From assembly GCF_002072105.2 (NCBI RefSeq), contig NZ_MTBC01000004.1, positions 388,182 through 452,181 on the forward strand: a DNA stretch of 64,000 bases, read 5' to 3'. Positions 51,681 to 64,000 of this stretch are shown piece after piece. The first letter of the stretch is position 1; each line of letters starts with the position of its first letter. Origin of the DNA: Croceivirga radicis (lineage in GTDB: Bacteria > Bacteroidota > Bacteroidia > Flavobacteriales > Flavobacteriaceae). Made by a program: the position numbers and the translations under genes. The notes under the pieces were generated by a model, which made no database searches, was not told the DNA's origin, and worked only from the letters and a program-made list of their open reading frames with translations.

Positions 51681-51739
51681 ACATATACGTAACTAGTTAC
51701 ATATATTATATATATTTGCGTAACCAGTTACGTATATGT
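51681..51739 (+). promoter_or_regulatory. MarR operator pair enclosing a TAnnTTTG promoter
   Basis: Two inverted 20-bp arms (51681-51700 and 51720-51739) match at 19 of 20 positions. Each contains its own palindrome, GTAACTAGTTAC on the left and GTAACCAGTTAC on the right. The 19-bp spacer holds TATATTTG (51711-51718), a perfect -7 box. The right arm ends 1 bp before the MarR start codon. Binding would block the promoter, so negative autoregulation is expected. Confidence 0.8.
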
Positions 51740-52465: not shown

Positions 52466-52485
52466 CTAGATCTGTTACCCCTTGT

Positions 52486-52541
52486 CCATAAACGGTTGCC
52501 ATGTTATCAACACAAACTTTGGCACACCGTTTATGGTTTTT
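52486..52541 (+). terminator. Terminator-like inverted repeat after the MarR operon
   Basis: Perfect 10-bp arms CCATAAACGG (52486-52495) and CCGTTTATGG (52527-52536) are separated by 31 nt that can add a short inner TGCC/GGCA stem. The right arm is followed by a run of T. It lies 21 bp after the membrane protein stop. Confidence 0.55.
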
Positions 52542-52639
52542 GCCAAAAAACCATATTCATACACAAAAAAGTAGATTTCGCCCTTACTATTTTTCCAATA
52601 ATGGGTATGAAATCTTGGATTAAACCCTTCCCTTTTTAA

Positions 52640-52852
52640 TTAGGCTTGCCTTATTGTAGTGTAACCAGACCGGTTAAAACGTTTTAAGATTTTTCGGTTC
52701 ACCTTCAACTGCTTATCCACTTTAAAAAAATAAACTTCTTCTGTCTGTCTTTTTTCATATTGGCTGCTAGATTTACATTTTGCACCACAGAACTTTTTAT
52801 CGGAACGACCTTTAATGACCTCCCCGCAAATTGGACAATGCCGTGTTTCCAT
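52640..52852 (-). CDS. Small zinc-ribbon protein
   Basis: The 70-residue protein has a four-cysteine zinc site: CPIC at residues 6-9 and CGAKC at 22-26. The rest is basic (KRQTEEVYFFKVDKQLKVNRK). No enzyme domain is seen; it may bind nucleic acid or another protein. It is divergent from the recombinase gene, with 67 bp between the start codons, so it marks the last chromosomal gene before the cassette array. Any functional link to the recombinase is unproven. Confidence 0.65.
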   Translation of the reverse strand: METRHCPICGEVIKGRSDKKFCGAKCKSSSQYEKRQTEEVYFFKVDKQLKVNRKILKRFNRSGYTTIRQA

Positions 52853-52919
52853 TACATTTAAATGAATATTATACGTTTAAAATACGACTTATGATTCTTT
52901 TTTAAGCTAGGATTGTAAA

Positions 52920-54047
52920 ATGATTTCTTCTAAATCCATAACCCTGCATCATCTAATGATTGCCAACAAACGGATAATTGGCATTCAATTTAGTCCAGAT
53001 AAACTAATACAAGACCTTCTTAAAGGCTTACCACAATGCAAGTGGAGCACCAAATACCGTATGGCCTATGTACCCAATAGCAAAACCAATCTAAACCGAA
53101 TATATAGCACTTTTAAAGGGGTGGCATGGATTAACTACAATAAATTTTTAACCAACAGACCTATAAACACACATAACCAAGAAGTAGATGCCAATTGGTT
53201 TAGAACGCGCGAATTACCGCCTAGCTACCGGCGGTGTCCAGAGCCCTATTTACAACGTTTAGAACTTAAACGCTACGCTAAAAACACGGTTAAAGTGTAT
53301 GTGCAGTTTTTTGAACAATTTATAAATCGATATCCAGAAAAAGACCTGGAAACCCTGAACGAGAGTGAAATACGAGAATACTTAAAAAGTTTAATTAACC
53401 GTAATTGTTCTAACTCTTACGTAAACCAGGCCATTAATGCCATTAAGTTTTATTACGAAGGTGTTTTGGGTATGCCCAATCGGTTTTATGAGCTAGAAAG
53501 ACCTAGAAAAGAAAGCCATTTACCCAAAGTTATATCTAAAGAAGAGGTATTACGTATTATTGACCATACCAATAACTTAAAACACCAATGTATAGTACAA
53601 CTACTGTATTCTTCAGGATTAAGGCGAAGTGAATTGGTAAGTCTTAAACTAGAAGATATAGACAGCAAACGTATGATAATACGTATAAAACAAGCCAAAG
53701 GCAAAAAAGATAGAATTACCATATTGAGTTCAAATGTTTTGGAGAATTTAAGACGATATTATAAAGAGTGGCAACCTACCACCTATTTGTTTGAAGGCAG
53801 AAATAAAGAAACCTACAGTGCCGTAAGTGTATTAAAAATAGTAAAAGATGCAGCCAATAGAGCCGGTATACGCACAACGGTTACCCCACACGTACTAAGA
53901 CATAGTTTTGCTACACATTTGCTAGAATCTGGTACCGATTTACGGCAAATACAAGTTTTATTAGGCCATGGAAGTACCAAAACAACAGAAATATATACCC
54001 ATGTAGCCAAACATACTTTTACGGCAATTAAAAATCCACTAGATTAG
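52920..54047 (+). CDS. Tyrosine recombinase, Xer-like, of the cassette array
   Basis: The protein has 375 residues. An extra N-terminal domain (about 1-95: IGIQFSPDKLIQDLLKGLP, then KWSTKYRMAYVPNSKTN) precedes a SAM-like core-binding domain (about 105-185) and a catalytic domain. The full active site is visible: R235, K260, H324, R327, H350 and Y359. The K-to-H distance is 64 residues, as in XerC/D (about 72) and far shorter than in integron IntI (about 106), so the IntI-specific insertion is missing. The end, YTHVAKHTFTAIKNPLD, resembles IntI C-termini (SPLD). It is oriented toward the array, with its stop only 45 bp before the first cassette boundary. Confidence 0.9.
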   Translation: MISSKSITLHHLMIANKRIIGIQFSPDKLIQDLLKGLPQCKWSTKYRMAYVPNSKTNLNRIYSTFKGVAWINYNKFLTNRPINTHNQEVDANWFRTRELPPSYRRCPEPYLQRLELKRYAKNTVKVYVQFFEQFINRYPEKDLETLNESEIREYLKSLINRNCSNSYVNQAINAIKFYYEGVLGMPNRFYELERPRKESHLPKVISKEEVLRIIDHTNNLKHQCIVQLLYSSGLRRSELVSLKLEDIDSKRMIIRIKQAKGKKDRITILSSNVLENLRRYYKEWQPTTYLFEGRNKETYSAVSVLKIVKDAANRAGIRTTVTPHVLRHSFATHLLESGTDLRQIQVLLGHGSTKTTEIYTHVAKHTFTAIKNPLD

Positions 54048-54097
54048 TATTCACAAAAAAGAAATATCCGTCATATGACGGATATCCAATTGTTGTA
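54048..54097 (+). other. Candidate primary attachment site (attI-like) with palindrome
   Basis: The gap between the recombinase stop and the first cassette contains a perfect 22-bp palindrome (54064-54085; arm ATATCCGTCAT) and then CAATT followed by the first core GTTGTA (54092-54097). It lacks the long two-arm structure of the sites between cassettes. This is where an integron has its attI. The palindrome could bind the recombinase or end the int transcript. Confidence 0.5.
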
Positions 54098-54104
54098 ACC
54101 AATT

Positions 54105-54530
54105 ATGAAAAAAATTCTCGTCCTAACAATATTGCTTTTCACTATTCAATCTTTTTCGCAAGAAAAAAATGATTGTGACGAACGGACTTTACCATATTGG
54201 GCAAACGGAATTAATAGTCGAATTGAGGGCGAAAATCCCGCTTTAAGAAAAGCCTTTGAGAAAATCCAACTTTCCGAAACAGAAATTCAACCAAAAAATG
54301 GATTTGTAACATTGAGGTTAAATATCTCGAAAACAGGAAAGCTTTGCGATATCGAAACATTCCAAATCGATGAAAATTATAAAAGTACCGAGTTTAATAA
54401 CGGACAACTAATAAAGGAATTGGAACAAATTGCAATCGGACTTACAGACTGGAAAAGAGATAAAGATTATAAAACGTACAACCTAATTAGACTCAAAATC
54501 AAAGACGGAAGAATTGAAGAAATTTTTTAA
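54105..54530 (+). CDS. Secreted protein with TonB-C-like fold, cassette 1
   Basis: The 141-residue protein has a signal peptide (1-18, ending QSFSQ). The region around residues 60-135 (KNGFVTLRLNISKTGKL) recalls the TonB C-terminal fold, in which a strand pattern V.L...I...G.. is followed by a helix and a final strand. The match is weak. It is the first gene of cassette 1, and its 3' end overlaps the next gene by 17 nt. Its function is unknown; it may be an envelope protein. Confidence 0.55.
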   Translation: MKKILVLTILLFTIQSFSQEKNDCDERTLPYWANGINSRIEGENPALRKAFEKIQLSETEIQPKNGFVTLRLNISKTGKLCDIETFQIDENYKSTEFNNGQLIKELEQIAIGLTDWKRDKDYKTYNLIRLKIKDGRIEEIF

Positions 54531-55290
54531 ATATTTATTCATCGGTTTAGGTTCCATAATTCTTCTGTTAATAATCGGAGTTACAATTTGGTGGAAAACA
54601 AAATCGGACAAGGAAAAATCAAGGTTAATGGTAGAATCTCACCAGTACGAAAAAGCCATTGAATATGACCAAGAAAATAGCGATGCTTGGATGGAACGTT
54701 CAGTTGCATTTAATAAAGCTGGAAATTTCGAGAAAGGATTTGAATATCTTAATAAAGCAGTCGAACTCGACCCAAAATTACATTTAGGTTACAGAGGTTG
54801 GATAAGGTTAAGAAAAATGCGAGATTTTGACAAAGCTCTCGAAGATTTTGACAGACTTGACAGTTTAACACCAAACTTCGTAGATGCGCCTTGGGGAGAA
54901 GATATCGACTTTTTGCGAGGAGAATGCTTTTTCGGAAAGAAGGAATATCAAAAAGCCATTGAATTGTTTAATCGCAATATCAAAAATCAAAAAGAGGATT
55001 GGGTAGATATTCATAGTTTCGTTTATCTCGGACTTTGTGAGTACGAACTCGGGAATTACAAAAAAGCGATTTCAGAATTTGAACGGGCTTTAAAACAATC
55101 GGAACACATTCCCGAATCTTATTTTGGAATGGCAAAATCCTACCAAAAACTTGGGCAAATCGAAAAAGCAAAAGAGCAAATCTTGAAAGCGGAAAATAAT
55201 ATGCATTATAAACGAGATGATGTTTATAACGAGTTTTTAAATGAAATTTATATTTCCGAGATACAGAAATTTAAACAAAAAATAAACTAA
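54514..55290 (+). CDS. Membrane-anchored TPR protein, cassette 1
   Basis: The 258-residue protein starts at a TTG (54514) inside the previous gene, giving MKKFFKYLFIGLGSIILLLI, a clear N-terminal membrane anchor (about 8-28). At least five TPR units follow (SDAWMERSVAFNKAGNFEKG and EYQKAIELFNRN for example). TPRs mediate protein contacts; the partner may be the co-encoded protein. Translational coupling is likely from the overlap. It ends 10 bp before the recombination site of the cassette. Confidence 0.75.
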   Translation: MKKFFKYLFIGLGSIILLLIIGVTIWWKTKSDKEKSRLMVESHQYEKAIEYDQENSDAWMERSVAFNKAGNFEKGFEYLNKAVELDPKLHLGYRGWIRLRKMRDFDKALEDFDRLDSLTPNFVDAPWGEDIDFLRGECFFGKKEYQKAIELFNRNIKNQKEDWVDIHSFVYLGLCEYELGNYKKAISEFERALKQSEHIPESYFGMAKSYQKLGQIEKAKEQILKAENNMHYKRDDVYNEFLNEIYISEIQKFKQKIN

Positions 55291-55300
55291 AATAACTGGT

Positions 55301-55430
55301 TACAACAATGGCTATAAACAATTGCTATTACAGGCTTATCCTGAAAAATTCCTGCGGAATTTTCAGCTTGTCGTGTAATTGTAAAAGTCCGTACTAAACC
55401 ACGCAACTATTCATAGCCGAGACCGTTGTA
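55301..55430. repeat. attC-like site 1
   Basis: A 130-bp imperfect inverted repeat. Outer arms are TACAAC (55301-55306) and GTTGTA (55425-55430). Inner arms are GGCTAT (55310-55315) and ATAGCC (55413-55418), extended by AATTGC/GCAACT. A central hairpin CTGAAAAATTCC-TGC-GGAATTTTCAG is also present. Cassette 1 ends GTTN7A/AAC-N7-AAC match: 5' GTTGTAACCAA, 3' CTGGTTACAAC. Confidence 0.8.
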
Positions 55431-55437
55431 CCACATT

Positions 55438-56103
55438 ATGAAAAAATTGTTAATCTTAATTATTCTATATTCAATCTGCCCTTTATTCGGACAGGAATCT
55501 GAAATTGAAAAACTCTTAATTAAAGGTAATGATGCCTATCAAAATTCTGATTTTCAAAATGCAAAAATCAATTACGAATCTATAATTAAAATTGACTCAA
55601 CTAACAAAGACGCTATTTACAATTTAGCTGGAACTGAGTTGAATTTAGGGAACAAATTTAGGGCATGCGAGCTGCTCCAAAAATCATATTCTCTGGGCGA
55701 CTTTGGAGCGTATGACCTGATTAAAGAACAATGCGGAGAACTTAATTACTCTGAAAAAATGTTCTTATTCCATGTCGATGAGCTTCCAAAATTTCTCTAC
55801 AAAGACAAATTTTTTCCACTCATAATCAACAAAAAGGAACTGAATCCTAATTACATGAAATTAATTAGAGCGGAAATAAAAAATTCTAAGGAACTGAAAC
55901 AAATTAAAGGACGTGCAAGCATTCTAATAAATGTTGACATAAACGGAAAATTAGTAACCAAAATACGTGGAGAAGTTCCTGAGAACAAAAGAGAATTAAT
56001 AAGTCAACTATTAGAAAATTTAACAGAATACAAACCTGCAACTTATATGAATAAATCAGTTGGACTTTTTGGTGGAGGATTTGCGTTACCCTTAACGTTC
56101 TAA
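55438..56103 (+). CDS. Secreted TPR/TonB-C-like protein, cassette 2
   Basis: The protein has 221 residues from the ATG at 55438 (MKKLLILIILYSICPLFGQ is the signal peptide); an upstream in-frame TTG at 55426 lies in the recombination site and is not the start. Residues about 20-95 hold TPR-like helices (GNDAYQNSDFQNAKINYES). The C-terminal half (about 145-221) shows ASILINVDINGKLVTKI and ends FGGGFALPLTF, close to the end of a TonB C-terminal-type domain. It resembles the combined content of cassette 1, so the two may be related in function. Confidence 0.65.
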   Translation: MKKLLILIILYSICPLFGQESEIEKLLIKGNDAYQNSDFQNAKINYESIIKIDSTNKDAIYNLAGTELNLGNKFRACELLQKSYSLGDFGAYDLIKEQCGELNYSEKMFLFHVDELPKFLYKDKFFPLIINKKELNPNYMKLIRAEIKNSKELKQIKGRASILINVDINGKLVTKIRGEVPENKRELISQLLENLTEYKPATYMNKSVGLFGGGFALPLTF

Positions 56104-56114
56104 AAATAACGTGG

Positions 56115-56307
56115 TACAACAAAACCTATAAACAATACGGGCTTCGGACTTAAACAGAAGGTTTGCGTATTTTTATGAAGTCTGCAAAATCTTTTGGATT
56201 TTGCTCTAGAAAGGAAAAAATAAATCAAAATAAAAAGATTTTGCTATGTGCGTGGCGGAAAGCAAACGCCAATTTGCCCCCGTACTGTTCATAGCTAAAC
56301 CGTTATA
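56115..56307. repeat. attC-like site 2
   Basis: A 193-bp inverted-repeat site beginning TACAAC (56115) and ending GTTATA (56302-56307). Inner arms are CTATAAACAATACGGG and CCCGTACTGTTCATAG. As the array model predicts, the left arm TACAAC pairs with the start of its own cassette (GTTGTA at 55425), not with the GTTATA that belongs to the next cassette. The cassette ends share GTTGTACCAC. Confidence 0.8.
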
Positions 56308-56744
56308 AATAACCCGCACTTAAAAAAGTAGAGTTTGGTCCGCTACCTTCCCTTTTTTGCTTTTAACGTGCTAGTCGGACCCAACAATGCGCAAACAGAA
56401 CGTTTATCAGGAAAGCAAAAAATGCCTTTCTTTTATCGCTTAAGTCTGTCCAAAACAAAAGGTTTGGGTCTTAAAGTAGATTGTGGCTTGTTACCCTACT
56501 TTTTGCCGCCAGTGCGCAAGTATTACGCAAGGTGGACGGGTATGGAACGATTAAAGCGGCAAAATTTTGAGACATCAATTTTACTGTTGTGCCAAGGGTT
56601 TGTTCTGCCCTGCAGGCAATTTATAACAAGATGTATAGCTAATTGCGGTCGAATTTCCAGACGGAAATTCAACCGTATTAACTATATTTATTCGCAACCG
56701 TTTGGTACGCGCTCTTTTGGGCGCAACTTGCCATACATTTAACG
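56303..56744 (+). other. Cassette 3: no convincing protein gene
   Basis: A 442-bp cassette bounded by GTTATAAAT and its inverse ATTTATAAC (ending 56627). An open frame runs through most of it (56335-56742) but starts at a TTG. It is cysteine- and arginine-rich without recognisable domains, extends to the end of the attC-like site, and is broken in the sister copy at 56745-57184. It therefore appears non-coding, or it may carry an RNA or a promoter. No TAnnTTTG box is seen. Confidence 0.55.
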
Positions 56745-56749
56745 TTATA
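56622..56749. repeat. attC-like site 3
   Basis: A 128-bp site, TATAAC (56622-56627) to GTTATA (56744-56749). The inner arms are GTATAGC-type on the left and CATAC on the right, and a central hairpin ATTTCCAGACGGAAAT is visible. Here both the left-arm hexamer and the next cassette's GTTATA agree because cassettes 3 and 4 are sister copies. Confidence 0.75.
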
Positions 56750-57184
56750 AATAACCCGCACTTAAAAAAGTAGAGTTTGGTCTGCTACTTTCCTTTTTTT
56801 GCTTTTAACGTGCTAGTCGGACGCAACAATACGCAAGTAGAACGTTTATCAGAAAAGCAAAAAATGCCTGTCTTTCATTGCTTAAGTCTGTCCAAAGCCA
56901 AAGGTTGGGTTTTAAAATAAAGTATGGCTTGTTACTTTCCTTTTTGCCGCCAGTGCGCAAGGGTTACGCAAGGTGGACGGGAACGGAACGATTAATGCGG
57001 CAAAATTTTGAGACATCAATTTTACTGCCGTGCCATGGGTTTGTTCTGCCCTGCAGGCAATTTATAACAAGATGTATAGCTAATTGCGGTCGAATTTCCA
57101 GACGGAAATTCAACCGTATTAACTATATTTATTCCCAACCGTGTGGTAAGCGCTCTTTTGGCGCAACTCGCCATACATTTAACG
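56745..57184 (+). other. Cassette 4: diverged copy of cassette 3
   Basis: A 440-bp cassette very similar to cassette 3 along its whole length, including the attC-like site. A one-base deletion in the GGTTTGGG stretch and an in-frame TAA break the open frame of the sister copy, so the conserved part is probably not a protein. ORFs here end in, or run through, the recombination site. The tandem pair suggests duplication by recombination or double integration. Confidence 0.6.
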
Positions 57185-57189
57185 TTAGC
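57063..57189. repeat. attC-like site 4
   Basis: A 127-bp site, TATAAC (57063-57068) to GTTAGC (57184-57189), nearly the same as site 3. The hexamer on the right belongs to cassette 5, so the two outer arms no longer pair perfectly, as expected at a boundary between unrelated cassettes. Confidence 0.75.
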
Positions 57190-57199
57190 TTTAATTTGA

Positions 57200-57607
57200 A
57201 TGAACGCTATTGACAAACAACTATTTTTAAAACATTTTATTCCGACTGAAATGGAACGGAAAAGAAGAGTTATGTTTGAAAACGGTTCATCAATAACAAC
57301 TAAATATAAATCTGAATTCAAATATTACGTGAAATATTTACCTGGAAATTCTGCTTACTATTATTCACCTGAATTCATTTTTAAAACAGAAACCGATTTA
57401 AAAATAATACCAATTCCGAATTTCTATACTTTTCTTTTTATTCCAATAGCTTTGGTCATTTTGACTTATTTTGAAAACATAGAATTGGAAAATATTTGGA
57501 CTATTTTAATTGCTCTAATTGGATTTGTAATATTAGTACAAATATTTCTAATTTTTCCAAGCATTATGAATATTAGAAAACGAGTAAATGAAAAACAAAA
57601 AAACTAA
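57200..57607 (+). CDS. Hypothetical two-helix membrane protein, cassette 5
   Basis: I do not recognise this 135-residue protein. Residues 1-75 are soluble and charged with aromatic patches (YYVKYLPGNSAYYYSPEF), and two transmembrane helices follow (about 78-92 and 100-122) with a short basic tail. The start is the ATG at 57200, 15 bp into the cassette, so little room remains for its own promoter. It ends 1 bp before the left recombination arm. Confidence 0.6.
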   Translation: MNAIDKQLFLKHFIPTEMERKRRVMFENGSSITTKYKSEFKYYVKYLPGNSAYYYSPEFIFKTETDLKIIPIPNFYTFLFIPIALVILTYFENIELENIWTILIALIGFVILVQIFLIFPSIMNIRKRVNEKQKN

Positions 57608-57608
57608 A

Positions 57609-57737
57609 GCTAACAATGTATAACCGCAATTACGGCGGATTCGACTACGTACGAATCCAGCGCGTATTGCTAAAACCTGTGCTTAATTCTAACGCTACCA
57701 ACTAAATACCGTAACTTCGGTTATACCAACCGTTGGC
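57609..57737. repeat. attC-like site 5
   Basis: A 129-bp site, GCTAAC (57609-57614) to GTTGGC (57732-57737). Inner arms are GTATAACCG and CGGTTATAC, with CAATTACGG and CCGTAACTT further in; a hairpin GGATTCG/CGAATCC lies in the centre. It is nearly identical to site 8 at 59768. Cassette 5 ends match over 10 bp (GTTAGCTTTA). Confidence 0.8.
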
Positions 57738-57752
57738 GTGCATGCAAAAAAA

Positions 57753-58052
57753 ATGAAACGACTTTTTCAAATATTGACCATTGCTTTACTATTTGTGACA
57801 ACTTCATGTTGTGACATTCTATGTGAACGACAAGAATATGCTGAATTAATTATCGAGAAAGTCGAGAAGTTCAAACAAGAAAACGGACGACTTCCAAAGA
57901 ATGTGACCGAAATAGGATTAGACGATACTCAAATGCACCTTTCATTTTACCAACTAACAAGTGACACGACTTATATGGTTTGGTATGGACTCGGTGTTGG
58001 AGAATCCAAAATTTACAGATCCGAAACAAAGAAGTGGACTGAAGAAGGATGA
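57753..58052 (+). CDS. Small lipoprotein, cassette 6
   Basis: The protein has 99 residues from the ATG at 57753; the frame also opens from a GTG at 57738 within the recombination core, which is rejected. The signal MKRLFQILTIALLFVTTSCC has a lipobox. The mature part is a short alpha/beta region (IIEKVEKFKQENGRLPKNV and MVWYGLGVGESKIYRSE) of no known family, with the look of pilin-like or inhibitor-type small exported proteins. Its stop overlaps the next start (ATGA). Confidence 0.65.
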   Translation: MKRLFQILTIALLFVTTSCCDILCERQEYAELIIEKVEKFKQENGRLPKNVTEIGLDDTQMHLSFYQLTSDTTYMVWYGLGVGESKIYRSETKKWTEEG

Positions 58053-58369
58053 AGAATAAGTGGAAAATAGGATTTTGGATTTGTCTCCTTCTTTTAATTG
58101 TTACGACAGGAATTGGATTCTATTCAGTTGTCGACCAAGCAGTGGCATTAACACACATGAAAGAAGGATATTCTGACACGGAATCGGACTTAGAAACAAT
58201 CATTCAAATTGTTGGACAAACTGACCAAACCAAACAAGAAATTGAGAATGTGCTTAAAGACCATAGACTTTATGAATACATGGACTTTAGAACAGACACA
58301 ATTGAAATTGAACGACTTACTCTCATTTTCGAGAATGATTATTTGAAGAGAATAGAAAAGCAATGGTAA
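58049..58369 (+). CDS. Hypothetical membrane-anchored protein, cassette 6
   Basis: The 106-residue protein is translationally coupled to the lipoprotein before it (4-nt overlap). An N-terminal transmembrane helix (about 8-28) is followed by an acidic helical domain (SDLETIIQIVGQTDQTKQE). No family is recognised. As the two share one cassette, they were acquired together and may act together in the envelope. Confidence 0.6.
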   Translation: MKNKWKIGFWICLLLLIVTTGIGFYSVVDQAVALTHMKEGYSDTESDLETIIQIVGQTDQTKQEIENVLKDHRLYEYMDFRTDTIEIERLTLIFENDYLKRIEKQW

Positions 58370-58389
58370 AAAAGAAAAAAGCACGACAC

Positions 58390-58447
58390 GCCAACAACAC
58401 CTATACGCAATATCCTGCGGGACACTGCGCATAGCCAAACCGTTGTA
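58390..58447. repeat. attC-like site 6 (shortest)
   Basis: Only 58 bp, from GCCAAC (58390-58395) to GTTGTA (58442-58447). The inner arms CTATACGCA and TGCGCATAG pair with one mismatch, and the top is a short hairpin TCCTGCGGGA. It shows the minimal site: outer arm, unpaired spacer, inner arm, loop. Cassette 6 ends match as GTTGGCGTG/CACGCCAAC. Confidence 0.85.
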
Positions 58448-58466
58448 GAGCATTTAAAAGCAAAAA

Positions 58467-59114
58467 TTGAAAAAAACAGTAATATTATTTTCCATCCTAA
58501 TTTCAATCTCTTCTTGTGGACAAAAAGAGAATAACGGAAAGTCAGACTTTAAAATTGACGAAAACATAAAAAAAGAGGTGGATTTTAAACTGTCTGAGTC
58601 GGAATTTGGCGAATCTTTCAATGAACTTTTCTTAGTGTATGACAATGTCCTTTTGGCTAATTTTTATGAAAATGACTCTTTGATGGTCTCTACTATTGGA
58701 AAGGAGCGGAAGATGCCCTTTAAATCATTTTATTACGTTAAAAACGACACTATTTCAATAGATGGCGCATATGGACTTTTTGGTGGTTTTGGATTTTCAA
58801 TAAAGTTTGTGGAAAACAAACCAATGGTTTATCACATGCTGGCTGGGGACGATTTTCCCGAATATTCTGAGTCTGCAGATGGACAACTAAAATTTAGAAT
58901 TGAAGTACAATGTACCGAAAGCACCCTCACACTTTCAAAATTTCCAGAACCAAATATGAATGACGTAATTTACGGAATTGTCGAATTTAAAAGCAAAGAT
59001 TATTATTCTGGGGCAATGCTAGTGGATAATGAGGAGCATGGTGAAAGGAAGAAAACAAGAATGGACATGAAAATTTATTTTAAGTCCAAATTTGTGGACT
59101 TTGAAAAATTATAA
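58467..59114 (+). CDS. Hypothetical lipoprotein, cassette 7
   Basis: The 215-residue protein starts at a TTG (58467); the encoded MKKTVILFSILISISSCGQK is a complete lipoprotein signal and no ATG is available before it. The mature protein is beta-rich (DGAYGLFGGFGFSIKFVENK) and matches no family I know. It is single in its cassette, starting 20 bp into it and ending 8 bp before the left arm. Confidence 0.65.
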   Translation: MKKTVILFSILISISSCGQKENNGKSDFKIDENIKKEVDFKLSESEFGESFNELFLVYDNVLLANFYENDSLMVSTIGKERKMPFKSFYYVKNDTISIDGAYGLFGGFGFSIKFVENKPMVYHMLAGDDFPEYSESADGQLKFRIEVQCTESTLTLSKFPEPNMNDVIYGIVEFKSKDYYSGAMLVDNEEHGERKKTRMDMKIYFKSKFVDFEKL

Positions 59115-59122
59115 AAACGCTC

Positions 59123-59250
59123 TACAACACGGTGTATAATTAATTGCGGGTGGATTTCCCAAATGGAAATCCTTACAATTAACTATCTTCGGTACAGGCG
59201 GACATTTTCCGTTGGAAAAGTCCGCAACTAATCATACACGAACCGTTGTA
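59123..59250. repeat. attC-like site 7
   Basis: A 128-bp site, TACAAC (59123-59128) to GTTGTA (59245-59250). Inner arms are GTGTAT and ATACAC, then TTGCGG and CCGCAA; a further hairpin GGATTTCC/GGAAATCC lies inside. Cassette 7 ends match over 10 bp (GTTGTAGAGC) and again after one A/G difference (TTT). Confidence 0.85.
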
Positions 59251-59262
59251 GGTAATTTAAAA

Positions 59263-59754
59263 GTGCGTATCGACATAAAAAAACACATATTACCCATTGG
59301 ACTTTTGATAGTCATTTTTAGTTTCTTTTTTTACAATCAAGATTTACTTGGAGGACTAGTTTTTCTAATTGTTGGTTGCGGATTTTTATACGCAGGATTC
59401 TATATTCGAAATATTAATTACAGAATAAAAACCAACGGAATTAAAGCTAAAGCGAAAATAGTTGACTTTAAAAAAGAACAGAATAAAGATGCTGATGGAG
59501 ATTCTTATGAATATTATTTTCCGATAGTAAGTTTTACCGACCGAAATGGAGTTGAAACGACTCAAAAGTTGGACTTAAGTGAAAACCCGAAACGAATTAA
59601 TGAACTGATTGACATTATTTACCTGAAAAAAGGAAATGAATACAAAATAATAAAGGACAATGATTGGTGGGAAAAAAACTTCCCAATGATTTTTATAATC
59701 GGTGGATTTTTATTTTCTGGAATTGGAATTATATGGTTGATTAATAAAATATGA
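59263..59754 (+). CDS. DUF3592-like membrane protein, cassette 8
   Basis: The protein has 163 residues from a GTG at 59263 (MRIDIKKHILPIGLL); the open frame extends left to 59212, but that part lies in the previous cassette's site and is unlikely to be translated. Two transmembrane helices (about 10-45) are followed by an extracytoplasmic beta domain (YYFPIVSFTDRNGVETTQK, KKGNEYKIIKD) and a final helix (about 142-160), as in DUF3592 proteins. Function unknown. Confidence 0.7.
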   Translation: MRIDIKKHILPIGLLIVIFSFFFYNQDLLGGLVFLIVGCGFLYAGFYIRNINYRIKTNGIKAKAKIVDFKKEQNKDADGDSYEYYFPIVSFTDRNGVETTQKLDLSENPKRINELIDIIYLKKGNEYKIIKDNDWWEKNFPMIFIIGGFLFSGIGIIWLINKI

Positions 59755-59767
59755 ATAAAAAACTACC

Positions 59768-59896
59768 TACAACAACGTATAACCGCAATTACGGCGGATT
59801 CGACTATGTCCGAATCCAGCGCGAATTGCTAAAACCTGTACTTAATTCTAACACTACCAACTAAATACCGTAACTTCGGTTATACCAACCGTTGTA
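59768..59896. repeat. attC-like site 8
   Basis: A 129-bp site, TACAAC (59768-59773) to GTTGTA (59891-59896), differing from site 5 at about six of its inner positions although the cassettes are otherwise unrelated. Inner arms are GTATAACCG and CGGTTATAC. Cassette 8 ends match over 10 bp (GTTGTAGGTA). Confidence 0.85.
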
Positions 59897-60130
59897 CTTA
59901 ATGATGAAAAGAAAATATAATTCACATAATGTTTTTGTGAATAATCACAAGAATTCCAAGTGCTATTTATAAAAGCATATACTCTCTATTGATAATAGGT
60001 ATTGAGTTGCCTATTTTCTATTTTAAAATAAAATGGCCAGTATTTAGTTTTTAAAGCAACAGTTTGAAATCAAATCAAATCAAATTACGAACCAATTACA
60101 ACAGCTGAAAACCAAGCGTATTATTTTTTT
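59897..60130 (+). other. Non-coding leader of cassette 9
   Basis: About 234 bp precede the gene of cassette 9, unlike the 8-30 bp seen in other cassettes. It holds a stem-loop AATAGG/CCTATT (around 59993-60016) and a tandem AATCA repeat (around 60070-60085). No TAnnTTTG box is clear, but there is room for a private promoter. The stretch 59755-60130 otherwise contains only site 8. Confidence 0.4.
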
Positions 60131-62347
60131 ATGAAAAAATCAATTCTAACACTTTTAACGATTACTTTTATCTTTACATATTCGTGTTCAAAAGAATCGT
60201 CAAACCCTACTGTTGAGCCAGATGTAACGGCGCCAACCTTCAATTTTTCAATTACCGGTTTCAACAATAATTCATCTGCTATTCCAATTGTTGTAAGCAA
60301 TCAAATAGAAATCAATATTAACGCCCAAGATGCAGGCGGTATTTCGAAAGTAGAAGCTTTTATAGATGACGAAAAAGCGGGAGAAGACACTAGTGCGCCA
60401 TACTCCATAATTGTCGATGTCTCTTCTTTAGCTTCTAAAATAGGTAAAACAAATACTTTTAAGAACTATACCTTGACGGTAGTTGTTACGGACAACTCTG
60501 GTAATTCAGAATCAAAGAACACAATTATCAATGTAGACAACGAGAAACCAACAATATCTGGGGTCAGCCTTTTTACTGGAGCAGTTATTAACGGAGATAC
60601 CAATACTGTAACTTTTGATGTTATGGATAATCAAGAATTGACTTCAGTTAAGGCTTTTTTAAACAATGAGCTGTTAATAGACCTACCGCTTGATAGTTTA
60701 TCAATCAACATTAACACCACTAACCTTACTGATGGGGAGAACGTTTTAAAAATAGAAGCAATAGACTCTGGCGAAAATCTTGGTACGTTTGAAGTAACCT
60801 TTATTTCTGACAACACAGGACCGGAAATAACAATTGAATCATTGGTTGAAAATCAAATTTTAGATAGCCTTATAACATTAAGTCCAAATGTTAATGATTT
60901 ATATTCTGAGGTAGATTCTTTGAAAGTGTTTTTAGGAGATTCTACGATAGTTTCTTTAGCAAATCAGACAGACTACAGCTTTGACTTTGACCCTAACCTA
61001 TACGCAACAGGTGCCAATTCAGTAAAGATTATAGCTACTGATAGTTTAGATAATGTATCCGAGTTAATTATTCCAATAGAAATATATCGAAGGTTAATAT
61101 CTTTGAATTTTCCCTCTAATTTTTACGACCCACAATTAGCAAGAATATACGTGTTTGCTTCCGACGCAGAAGGAAATCTACTTGACAATAAAAGAGTTAC
61201 CCAAGACACCGACAAGATAATACTACGTACTATAGAAGAGATCAACCCTAATTCGGAATTTATGCTCACGATAGGTGAATATAGTACAGGTGCATTTGGA
61301 AATTCAAGTGAGTTTACAACACTTCAAAACTTAACCCCATCCACTTTAGGTGAAATCAATTTTAAAACTTATCCACGATTTGACTACGTCCCTACGAATC
61401 CTTTTCAGTTTCCAACTCAAGGTTTCGATTCTCAAGATATTATTTCAATGAATTCTGAAGGTTTTGGATATGGGGGTAGCTTCTATAGCGAAACAGAAGA
61501 GTTTAACATAGATAGAAGAAGAAATACAACAAGTGCCGTAAATTCTGAGTTCATTTATGTTCCTCAAATTAATTTGACTTTGAATGAATATAGTTATTAT
61601 GTTGCTGATTGGGATATACCGTCGGATTTTGTTTTCACGCCACAGCTATTTACAAATGAAAATGTAGAAAAAAGATTCTATCAACCCATTCTAAGCAATG
61701 GAGAAACGTTTGAATCATCATCTTACTGGATTGCGGGTTATTTTAGCAATGATGATTTTCAAAACAATGTTTACCACCGTATTGACGGACATGGATATGG
61801 TTATCAGGGATTAGAGGGTATACCTTATTATTTCAATTCTATTTTTACTAATTATAAGTACAATGTTAGAATTAATGACTATTACACAGAACGAACCGGG
61901 GAGCTTGCACCGTCATTTCATACTTTAGATTGGTCAATAGATTATTCTTATTCAAATAACGAAATTGAAGTAATTAAGAATGGATTGGACCATACTGTTG
62001 GGAAGGTTTTTATTAATAGTGACCCATATGTGGTTATAGAAGGACTAAATATAAGTTATCGTTGGAGCCTGGTTTTTGATAGTCAAAAGACAGATAACAT
62101 CAAACTTCCAAAAATTCCTGAAGAAATAAAAACATGGGGGTTTTATGAATTGTATGAACAGGGGAATATGGAGGTACAACAGGTTGAGATAAAACGCTAT
62201 GAAAATATAAACTCATATGACGAATACCTATATAAGGTTATCAAAGATAATCGTCACTCATATTTAGTGTCACCAGTAATGGAATCTAAATTCAAATCAA
62301 CTGTACCGGGATATTACAAAAAAGCGTCTCATTTTTTATTGGATTAA
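60131..62347 (+). CDS. Large lipoprotein with Ig-like domains, cassette 9
   Basis: The 738-residue lipoprotein has a signal MKKSILTLLTITFIFTYSCS. Three bacterial Ig-like domains follow (about 35-135, 137-228 and 230-318), each opening with a DxxxPT or DNTGPEI-type phrase and carrying VFLGD/AFIDDE-type strands. The C-terminal 400 residues are a unique beta-rich, tyrosine-rich region (DIISMNSEGFGYGGSFYSE). It is probably a surface-exposed binding or adhesion protein. It is unusually large for a cassette gene (cassette 2766 bp). Confidence 0.75.
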   Translation: MKKSILTLLTITFIFTYSCSKESSNPTVEPDVTAPTFNFSITGFNNNSSAIPIVVSNQIEININAQDAGGISKVEAFIDDEKAGEDTSAPYSIIVDVSSLASKIGKTNTFKNYTLTVVVTDNSGNSESKNTIINVDNEKPTISGVSLFTGAVINGDTNTVTFDVMDNQELTSVKAFLNNELLIDLPLDSLSININTTNLTDGENVLKIEAIDSGENLGTFEVTFISDNTGPEITIESLVENQILDSLITLSPNVNDLYSEVDSLKVFLGDSTIVSLANQTDYSFDFDPNLYATGANSVKIIATDSLDNVSELIIPIEIYRRLISLNFPSNFYDPQLARIYVFASDAEGNLLDNKRVTQDTDKIILRTIEEINPNSEFMLTIGEYSTGAFGNSSEFTTLQNLTPSTLGEINFKTYPRFDYVPTNPFQFPTQGFDSQDIISMNSEGFGYGGSFYSETEEFNIDRRRNTTSAVNSEFIYVPQINLTLNEYSYYVADWDIPSDFVFTPQLFTNENVEKRFYQPILSNGETFESSSYWIAGYFSNDDFQNNVYHRIDGHGYGYQGLEGIPYYFNSIFTNYKYNVRINDYYTERTGELAPSFHTLDWSIDYSYSNNEIEVIKNGLDHTVGKVFINSDPYVVIEGLNISYRWSLVFDSQKTDNIKLPKIPEEIKTWGFYELYEQGNMEVQQVEIKRYENINSYDEYLYKVIKDNRHSYLVSPVMESKFKSTVPGYYKKASHFLLD

Positions 62348-62467
62348 GTAGGAAATAAGTTCATACCGGAGAGGATTATTAAAAGGAATTGCCAACTAAA
62401 TTTGATATCTGGAGAATTCTGTTCCTACTTGTTTTACTAGGAGACCAACTGTCCAGAAAGCACTAAG
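62348..62467 (+). other. Non-coding tail of cassette 9
   Basis: About 120 bp lie between the stop codon and the left recombination arm, more than in the other gene-bearing cassettes. I see no gene, hairpin or repeat in it. With site 9 it accounts for the gene-free stretch 62348-62681. Confidence 0.4.
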
Positions 62468-62662
62468 TACAACAAAACCTAAACGTAATACGGACTTTAG
62501 GGCAAAACTGAAAGGTGTGTGTATATTTATGATGTCGCTAAATCTTATGGATTTAGCTTTGGACAAAAAAAAGAAAAAGCAAAACAATAAGCTTTAGCTA
62601 CGTCGGCAGACGGAAACGAAAAGTTTCCTTGTCTCCGCACTACGCTTAGCCGAACCGTTGTA
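62468..62662. repeat. attC-like site 9
   Basis: A 195-bp site, TACAAC (62468-62473) to GTTGTA (62657-62662). The inner arms CTAAACGTAATACGG and CTCCGCACTACGCTTAG pair with mismatches. A central hairpin AAATC...GATTTAGC resembles the one in site 2. Cassette 9 ends match over 10 bp (GTTGTACTTA). Confidence 0.8.
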
Positions 62663-62681
62663 CGCTATTTAAACCTCGATA

Positions 62682-63731
62682 ATGACAATTAAGAACTTAT
62701 ATCTAATTTCCATTTTTCAATTTTTGATTTTTTCCTGTAATAATGGGACTTCACAATACTATGAAAAGGGCAAGTCATTATATGATGAAGGGAACTATAC
62801 CAAGGCTATCGAATTATTAACCAAGGATATAGATTTAAACGGTGGGACAGATTTAGCATATTATTATCGTGGAAGAGCACTGCAATCCACTCAAAAGTAT
62901 CAAAAAGCAATTCTGAACTTCAACAAGGCAATAGCTATAAACGAAGATTTAATTTACATCCACGTGAATAAGGCTGTAACGCAAATCAAATTAAAACAGC
63001 ACGATTCCGCACTTCAAGGATTGAACTACATTATTACAAAATTTGAGCCTTCCCAAGATTCAAACATAAATAGAAATCTTGCTATAGCCTACAATAATAG
63101 GGGTCTGATTAAGCATCAGATTTTAAAAGATTTTCCAAATGCATTAGCTGATTTTAATAAGTCACTAAGTTTTGAAGAAAATTCGGAGAGTCAATTGCCT
63201 TTTATGAATAGAGGTGTTTTGTTTCTTGAAACAAAGGAATATGAAAAGGCCATTACTGATTTGGAAAGGGCTATACAATTGAATGACAAAAAAGCATGGG
63301 CACACTTCATGAAAGCCCGCGCTCATTTTCAGATAAAGAACTATTCAAATTCATTGATTAGTATAAATCGCGCAATTGAACTGGAAGCAACCAACTGGAG
63401 GTACTTCAATTTAAGGGGCATGACATTAAATAACCTAGAAAGATATAATGAAGCTCTATCTGATTTCAACAAAGCTGTGGATATTTCAAATCATGACTAT
63501 GCATATAATAATCGGGGATTTACAAAATATAAACTTGGAAATCTAAAAGAAGCTCTTGAGGACTGCCAAAAAGCGATGGAATTGAATAATGAAAACAGCT
63601 GGACTTTTTATAATCTTGGTTTAATCAACTATGAAATCGGAAATAAGTCAAAGGCCTGCGATTATTTTAAAAAGGCTTTGGACTTAGGAAAAAAAGAAGC
63701 CGAAATCGAGTTGGTGAATAAATGCCAATAA
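62682..63731 (+). CDS. TPR-repeat lipoprotein, cassette 10
   Basis: The 349-residue lipoprotein has a signal ending FLIFSCNNGTS. Nine or so TPR units fill the rest (GKSLYDEGNYTKAIELLTKD, KKAWAHFMKARAHFQIKNYS for example), ending YFKKALDLGKKEAEIELVNK. TPR arrays of this kind act as protein-docking scaffolds, often at the outer membrane. It is one of three TPR-bearing cassettes in this array. It starts 20 bp into the cassette. Confidence 0.82.
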   Translation: MTIKNLYLISIFQFLIFSCNNGTSQYYEKGKSLYDEGNYTKAIELLTKDIDLNGGTDLAYYYRGRALQSTQKYQKAILNFNKAIAINEDLIYIHVNKAVTQIKLKQHDSALQGLNYIITKFEPSQDSNINRNLAIAYNNRGLIKHQILKDFPNALADFNKSLSFEENSESQLPFMNRGVLFLETKEYEKAITDLERAIQLNDKKAWAHFMKARAHFQIKNYSNSLISINRAIELEATNWRYFNLRGMTLNNLERYNEALSDFNKAVDISNHDYAYNNRGFTKYKLGNLKEALEDCQKAMELNNENSWTFYNLGLINYEIGNKSKACDYFKKALDLGKKEAEIELVNKCQ

Positions 63732-63739
63732 AAACAGCG

Positions 63740-63873
63740 CACAACACGGGCTATAATTCATTGTGGGCGGATTTACTTAAACGGAAATCATTAACTTCAA
63801 GCCAAGGTTTGATTTCGGGCGGAATGTTCACTACGTGAAATTCCACAACGAAATCATAGCCGATAACGTTTTA
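63740..63873. repeat. attC-like site 10
   Basis: A 134-bp site, CACAAC (63740-63745) to GTTTTA (63868-63873). Inner arms are GGGCTAT and ATAGCC, with a further GGGCGGATTT...AATC pairing inside. Cassette 10 ends match at 9 of 10 positions (GTTGTACGCT against GTTGTGCGCT). Confidence 0.8.
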
Positions 63874-63939
63874 ATACATTTAATACCGAAATTTTGCAAC
63901 ATAAGAAATTGAATGTCGTCTTCTAAAAAAATAGAATTT

Positions 63940-64000
63940 ATGAGAAAAATAATTTTGACTTTGACTTTGGCATTGTTCACTTCAATGGTTTTTGCAACTG
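63940..64000 (+). CDS. Start of a secreted protein, cassette 11 (partial)
   Basis: An ATG at 63940 opens MRKIILTLTLALFTSMVFAT, a signal peptide with an A-x-A-like cut site, and runs off the end of the window. It is the gene of the eleventh cassette, which starts with GTTTTAATACATTT. Nothing can be said about its function. Confidence 0.6.
   Translation, partial: MRKIILTLTLALFTSMVFAT

Follow-up and report, generated by a model that had tools for sequence, protein, structure and literature searches.

The integron serves as the standard case of a recombinase acting on folded single strands of DNA, and the insert in its integrase, IntI, is held to enable this. In the available portions of the literature cited here, an additional domain near patch III defines IntI (PMC9668308), the insert is incompletely conserved within a subgroup of integron-like recombinases (PMC8138268), and the joint origin of insert and sites is posed as a chicken-and-egg question (PMC4792948). 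The strand of classical attC sites is marked by extrahelical bases (PMC2727003). Bacteroidota are counted among the integron-bearing phyla (PMC8618304, PMC9668308), with classical integrons in, for example, Salinibacter ruber M1, which belongs to the same phylum by that paper's naming (PMC9024848). A study of phage CALINs (clusters of attC sites without integrase) includes a Polaribacter phage, and the intact phage integrase reported there is of IntI type, at 95.3% to the Shewanella oneidensis integrase (PMC9892861). The subject of this study is an integron-like array in 64,000 nt of Croceivirga radicis DNA, here called the window (NCBI RefSeq assembly GCF_002072105.2, contig NZ_MTBC01000004.1, positions 388,182 to 452,181, forward strand). 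With a probability of roughly 0.86, its Xer/IntI-type recombinase, which lacks the IntI insert, likely captures, reorders and releases gene cassettes via attC-like hairpins and a palindromic attI. The accessible parts of the open-licence integron literature, a scope that leaves out preprints and most subscription papers, gave no account of such a system. Since the insert is incompletely conserved in the subgroup mentioned above (PMC8138268), that subgroup may already include relatives of the present recombinase.

On the + strand the window carries, in order, the tyrosine recombinase, an attI-like site, ten complete cassettes and a partial eleventh (Table 1); it ends where contig C15 of this draft genome ends, so that the array runs into the contig end. 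An earlier note on this DNA had described a recombinase followed by ten complete cassettes of 440-2766 bp and part of an eleventh, and the G|TT cuts (the bar marking the cut) confirm this. Beyond that note, an attI-like site at 54064-54092 starts the first cassette, and a divergent small gene at 52640-52852 accompanies the integrase. The cassettes themselves are marked by complementarity between each site and its own start: nine left-arm letters of each site were compared with the reverse complement of its own cassette's letters after TT. In the window array the own start matches in 75 of 90 letters and the next cassette's start in 41 of 90; permutations give a mean of 36.3 and a maximum of 67, and none of 200,000 reaches 75. 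Without cassette 4, a near-copy of cassette 3, the own match is 68 of 81, again reached by none of 200,000 permutations. The site scanner uses AACA, the inner stem and CGTT, and the own-start letters play no part in detection. In a first set of loci (67 pairs) the own start matched in 398 and the next start in 214 of 469 letters, and in 168 intervals from 25 loci selected for holding arrays the figures were 1011 and 472 of 1176. At least six of seven own letters match in 139 of the 168 intervals (median length of these 803 bp), and among the intervals with such a match and an open reading frame (ORF) of at least 60 aa, the longest ORF lies on the cassette sense strand in 117 of 118. Because closing a circle pairs the left arm with the start of the same cassette in an outer stem, the own-start match is, judged from these letters, the mark of units that once existed as circles.

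The proposal of a cassette-capture system is likewise upheld by units that recur elsewhere with G|TT junctions and other neighbours. Cassette 2 occurs in genome G548 as an 878-bp unit bounded by two cuts (88%) and in G762 (89%), cassette 5 has relatives in G282 (91%) and G614 (84%), and cassette 8 is found in G575 (86%) within an array that has its own integrase and zinc-ribbon gene. The gene body of cassette 1 is present in G472 (77%), where the left junction could not be placed; in the other five of the six foreign copies it falls at G|TT. No further window cassette body was matched in the six fetched foreign stretches. Within the C. radicis genome, cassettes 3 and 4 have 92% identity to the first cassette behind the attI of contig C19, where a second array begins; there, too, the left junction falls at G|TT. 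A DNA match to the array at E<=1e-10 is present in 262 of 397 family genomes, many of the listed matches spanning only the sites of cassettes 1, 2, 7 and 9. The earlier note had suggested looking for strain-to-strain gain and loss of exactly these units; between species, two orthologous attI sites, compared with G010 of the same genus, differ from the cut onward. At C1:185602, the 1,500 nt before the cut are 94.7% identical to the G010 counterpart and only short matches follow beyond G|TT, the best of 22 nt; at C19, identity is 93.0% up to the cut and the best match beyond it by E-value is 18 nt. As far as these alignments go, turnover starts at the cut in two orthologous attI loci of two species of the genus. 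G168 and G134, two genomes of a single genus, have integrases only 41% identical and share a cassette that is 97.5% identical over 1,061 columns, the match starting at the G of the attI cut and ending 8 nt beyond the attC cut; the alignment that includes the integrase genes extends upstream at lower identity, 91% over 1,304 columns.

The sites follow the integron attC plan that had been proposed for them, with R''/R' and L''/L' inverted repeats, spacers and a variable loop, and with covariation in 40 aligned sites. The arm plan stands; strict spacers of 3 and 5-6 nt do not, the best stems having a left spacer of 3-5 nt and a right spacer of 5-7 nt. In the inner stem there are 161 double-change cells, as against 49.3 +/- 5.8 in shuffled and 27-49 in slid alignments. 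The window scanner (AACA, a 10-nt inner stem, A/C-CGTT) was designed from these sites, so its recovery of all 10 array sites on the + strand is partly by design; it found one more in the remaining 54 kb, and on the - strand two across the whole window, one of them inside the array. A covariance model built from the 40 sites, six of which come from the window array, recovers seven of the ten array sites at E<=1, with no further hit in the window. The earlier note had proposed a covariance-model search of Bacteroidota genomes; in the loci searched, such sites are arrayed next to recombinases of this type. Columns 25 and 48 form a standard pair in none of the 40 aligned sites: column 25 is A throughout and C fills column 48 in 90% or more, which places T against G on the bottom strand. 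Among 84 sites there are 227 inner-stem mismatches, 158 of the A.C (top) kind and two of the reverse kind, concentrated at offsets 9-10 and 14 past AAC (counted from 0). Read as T.G from the complementary strand, this fixed A.C mismatch predicts folding of the bottom strand, and folding energies make this strand the more stable in 81 of 84 inner stems and 77 of 84 whole sites; the folded bottom strand is thus the predicted substrate. In a check for extrahelical bases, stems aligned with a gap in 18 of 84 sites, and A.C/T.G positions stand at fixed places instead, so wobble positions may replace extrahelical bases as the strand mark. The core GTTRRRY is matched by 4 of 84 sites.

The recombinase matches the Pfam families Phage_integrase (143 bits) and SAM_4 (62 bits), and R235, K260, H324, R327, H350 and Y359, which we take to be the catalytic residues, are invariant in an alignment of 13 relatives. 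The best NCBIfam model is NF040815 (XerA/integron integrase) at 233.2 bits, above its cut-off of 220, while the IntI model TIGR02249 gives 213.6, below its curated cut-off of 265, in two stretches. In the alignment with IntI4, 24 unaligned residues lie between the two aligned stretches here and 67 in IntI4. XerA aligns with the recombinase core in one stretch, without the gap seen against IntI4, and the core fold matches XerA and XerH. The motif spacing is 58-59 in 111 of 129 readable relatives and 100 in the one correctly read IntI row on which the IntI figure rests, the motif search having misread 11 other IntI rows. In a quick tree of 154 recombinase rows, 12 IntI rows from this phylum group with three relatives in a single clade, with a Shimodaira-Hasegawa-like approximate likelihood-ratio test (SH-aLRT) value of 100. 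The window row lies outside it in a starred clade of 19, of which 13 have arrays and the other six have less than 1.2 kb downstream. Array labels outside the window clade are scattered, with 15 changes, so that the whole family does not amount to a single clean array clade. The absent insert, the separate clade and the rarity of GTTRRRY together sustain the claim that this system is distinct from classical integrons. A plasmid, CP012862.1 (Persicobacter sp. JZB09, 395 kb), carries at 200882-202000 a recombinase relative that is 42.6% identical over 99%, so the platform may itself be mobile. Of 27 loci with a zinc-ribbon homologue (tblastn, E<=1e-3), 26, the window among them, have it on the strand opposite to the integrase and upstream of it, two of these about 850 nt away; in the remaining locus the homologue is on the same strand and far off. 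The zinc-ribbon protein scores 24.3 bits against DUF2116, below the Pfam cut-off of 26.8; it may help or regulate the system, and the N-terminal domain of the integrase may aid binding to the attI palindrome or to the hairpin.

Behind the integrase stop is the palindrome ATATCCGTCATATGACGGATAT, followed by CCAATTG|TT. A palindrome of half-length at least 10 (allowing a single mismatch and a loop of at most four) lies behind 17 of the 19 window-clade recombinases, compared with mean half-lengths of 5.7-8.1 and highest values of up to 12 in shuffled segments; in 16 of the 19 loci a few letters and G|TT come immediately after it. Outside the window clade such a palindrome was found in 3 of 19 loci. 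The sequence of the attI palindrome varies from genus to genus. Of 38 loci examined for the first cassette, seven had no detected first site; in 21 of the other 31, a GTT within 600 nt past the stop shares 6-7 of 7 letters with the first site's arm, which identifies the insertion point as the attI cut. The palindrome has seven copies in this genome with two mismatches allowed (control 0), each followed in one orientation by 6-7 nt ending in the G of G|TT. Covariance-model sites lie downstream of C2:93090 (38.8 bits) and C1:143827 (53.6 bits), and C2:100808 has only a weak overlapping match (18.5 bits). For these seven attI copies the genome has one integrase of this kind, its remaining matches to this integrase being at about 1e-28 or weaker, and it is likely that the single integrase serves dispersed attI sites in trans. 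G010 has five copies of the palindrome, each followed by [TC]CAATTG|TT and four with an own-arm site; it is the sole exception among ten genomes of the genus checked, the palindrome being found in none of the other nine. In G031, the genome's own attI palindrome is present in a second exact copy, behind which an own-arm site matches in 7 of 7 letters, and in a third copy with three mismatches and no GTT behind. As a separate observation, four dispersed attI (G000:C19:2850, C1:185602, C2:93090 and C12:399901) have further letters in common upstream of their palindrome; these take two forms, like TATCTTTA..C.AAAAGT and TAGTAGTTTTAT.C.AAA, and are missing from the integrase-linked attI.

Arrays of this kind were found in Winogradskyella ursingii, Flavobacteriaceae S0862, Seonamhaeicola aphaedonensis, Rufibacter, Algibacter onchidii and a Bacteroidetes metagenome-assembled genome. 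Matches to the recombinase family at E<=1e-60, among which IntI itself may be counted, occur in 116 of 395 phylum genomes, 54 of them in the window's class. IntI above the cut-off occurs in 105 of the 395; just one of these, G095, belongs to the window's class, and no IntI above the cut-off was found in this genome. Array-like chains, defined by a match of all seven own letters, were counted on the integrase strand around 221 loci: 102 lie in 1.67 Mb downstream and one in 1.17 Mb upstream. On the opposite strand there are three downstream and 165 upstream, 161 of the latter in 41 of 80 viral loci. Seven family recombinases (L079, L104, L124, L109, L106, L087 and L123) end 34-342 nt from a contig end, which would be expected if assemblies break at arrays of similar sites; in that case arrays are under-counted.

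The viral loci, so called from the contig label of the source collection, have a second layout. In 41 of the 80 (contigs L163, L171, L188, L195, L210, L226, L227, L235 and 33 further) the array lies upstream of a short recombinase and on the opposite strand, as in classical integrons. These recombinases are of about 267 aa and without the N-terminal extension, and their motif spacing, 53-54 in 40 of 41 and 58 in one, indicates that they have no IntI insert. Six of them score 139-157 against the IntI model and 167-206 against NF040815, in both cases below the cut-off (265 and 220). Their sites match their own start in 658 and the next in 400 of 882 letters (126 intervals), have GTTRRRY in 3 of 83, and place mismatches at the same offsets, 9 and 14, with top-strand A against C in 126 of 156. 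A single site type is thus shared by two builds of recombinase that lack the insert. We hold it slightly better than an even chance that these belong to a second, non-IntI integron lineage common to Bacteroidota chromosomes and viruses, in which the insert would be unneeded for folded-strand capture. The chromosomal build would combine the N-terminal domain, the zinc-ribbon partner, an array on the enzyme's strand and a genome-wide network of palindromic attI with one integrase; the viral build would be a minimal enzyme with a divergent array.

Like IntI integrons, the window system has an attI and a cassette array with one attC-like site per cassette, a G|TT cut, own-start complementarity, and a predicted bottom-strand hairpin with an unpaired central spacer. 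Unlike them, it has a recombinase without the additional domain and with an extra N-terminal one, a core other than GTTRRRY, an outer arm of GTT plus seven cassette-specific letters, fixed A.C (top) or T.G (bottom) positions, a palindromic attI in several copies, a divergent zinc-ribbon gene, and an integrase on the cassette strand. The second arrays resemble CALINs in having no adjacent integrase in the fetched stretches, but they begin at their own attI palindrome, which to our knowledge is not part of the CALIN definition. The gap-free core alignment with XerA and the fold matches to XerA and XerH are shared with the dif systems of XerA, XerH and XerCD; however, the substrates here are long hairpins and attI, and no dif-like arm pair was noticed, no dif search having been made. 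In the proposed mechanism, the recombinase would bind the folded bottom strand by its two arms and unpaired spacer, with the T.G positions as strand mark, would cut the right core between G and TT, and the cut site would be joined to attI or to another attC-like site. The adjacent recombinase is the likely catalyst.

Several observations weigh against a recombinase that moves these cassettes. Recombination is read from sequence, and cassette gain and loss from comparisons between species only. In the compared stretches, what is shared with G010 is limited to 52475-54116 and a 58-nt part of one site; the integrase could therefore be the array's passenger and not its engine. No same-strand array was detected at 22 of 51 long recombinases with 5 kb downstream, where the scanners may miss other site types, and the extra N-terminal domain is dispensable for arrays as such, since viral enzymes without it head arrays. 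Shuffled sites favour the bottom strand in 56 of 84 cases, so part of the strand bias is composition. An own-arm site (6-7 of 7 letters) stands behind four of the seven palindromes (C15, C19, C1:185602 and C12:399901), not all, and a stricter chain that drops two-letter arms retains two (C15 and C1:185602); G015 and G175 have one palindrome each.

Three other explanations were weighed. That this is a classical integron whose IntI and attC sites have both diverged is unlikely, given the IntI score below the cut-off, the shorter unaligned stretch and motif spacing, the separate IntI clade, the scarcity of GTTRRRY, and the integrase on the same strand as the cassettes. The genome does encode Xer-like proteins, and a folded phage site is acted on by host XerCD (PMC4792948, in its available portion), so that host XerC/XerD or an unseen IntI could move the cassettes in trans, the adjacent recombinase serving otherwise. 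This is very unlikely: the genome has no IntI above the cut-off, in many genera the array opens with an attI-like site that follows a recombinase of this type, viral relatives of the enzyme stand at the head of arrays in the second layout, and the dispersed palindromes occur in the two genus genomes whose integrase has that attI.

It is extremely unlikely that the sites are mobile hairpin repeats of the repetitive extragenic palindrome (REP) or miniature inverted-repeat transposable element (MITE) type, intergenic near a recombinase by chance. Near-identical sites in many family genomes, the many matches to a site alone and a few single sites elsewhere in this genome would fit such repeats, but dispersed repeats do not give own-start complementarity, nor do they account for whole units elsewhere with exact ends, for genes on the sense strand, or for chains downstream and not upstream of the integrase. 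This explanation was rejected in the main on own-start complementarity and on divergence that starts at the cut.

A cassette system of the same logic without the insert makes the chicken-and-egg question directly testable. It also suggests gene exchange on a large scale within the window's class, in which IntI above the cut-off was found in one sampled genome: 262 of 397 family genomes match this one array in their DNA, many of them at its sites alone. Several attI per genome would be a new way of spreading captured genes over the chromosome, and viral relatives of the system would offer cassette transport between cells.

Table 1. Features of the cassette array in window coordinates; the G|TT cut that closes each complete cassette follows its last position. 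TPR, tetratricopeptide repeat; Ig, immunoglobulin.
Feature	Position	Strand	Length	Remarks
Zinc-ribbon protein gene	52640..52852	-	70 aa	divergent from integrase, conserved partner
Tyrosine recombinase (integrase) of cassette system	52920..54047	+	375 aa
Integrase N-terminal domain	52920..53147	+	residues 1-76	predicted beta-beta-alpha-beta-beta-alpha-beta
attI-like site	54064..54094	+		22-bp perfect palindrome, then CCAATTG|TT; cut after 54092
Cassette 1	54093..55425	+	1333 bp	TPR proteins of 141 aa and 258 aa; own-start match of site's left arm 8/9
attC-like site 1	55297..55434	+
Cassette 2	55426..56302	+	877 bp	protein of 225 aa; other neighbours in G548, G762
attC-like site 2	56111..56311	+		long loop
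Cassette 3	56303..56744	+	442 bp	near-copy of cassette 4
attC-like site 3	56618..56753	+
Cassette 4	56745..57184	+	440 bp
attC-like site 4	57059..57193	+
Cassette 5	57185..57732	+	548 bp	protein of 135 aa; also G282, G614
attC-like site 5	57605..57741	+
Cassette 6	57733..58442	+	710 bp	proteins of 99 aa and 106 aa, neither above Pfam cut-off
attC-like site 6	58386..58451	+		shortest: 50 nt, AAC to cut
Cassette 7	58443..59245	+	803 bp	protein of 215 aa
attC-like site 7	59119..59254	+
Cassette 8	59246..59891	+	646 bp	protein of 180 aa; also in G575
attC-like site 8	59764..59900	+
Cassette 9	59892..62657	+	2766 bp	protein of 738 aa, bacterial Ig domains
attC-like site 9	62464..62666	+		long loop
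Cassette 10	62658..63868	+	1211 bp	protein of 349 aa, TPR-like by sequence pattern alone
attC-like site 10	63736..63877	+
Cassette 11, partial	63869..64000	+		cut off by contig end

Cassettes 3 and 4 (56303-57184) are tandem near-copies, with 88-92% identity across the two repeat blocks. Their listed ORFs, of 135 and 111 aa, have TTG as start codon, and these cassettes may therefore hold no gene. Upstream of the array, an inverted repeat at 51681-51739 with 20-nt arms, 95% complementary, lies between pseudouridine-synthase-like and MarR-like genes, so named from their sequence.

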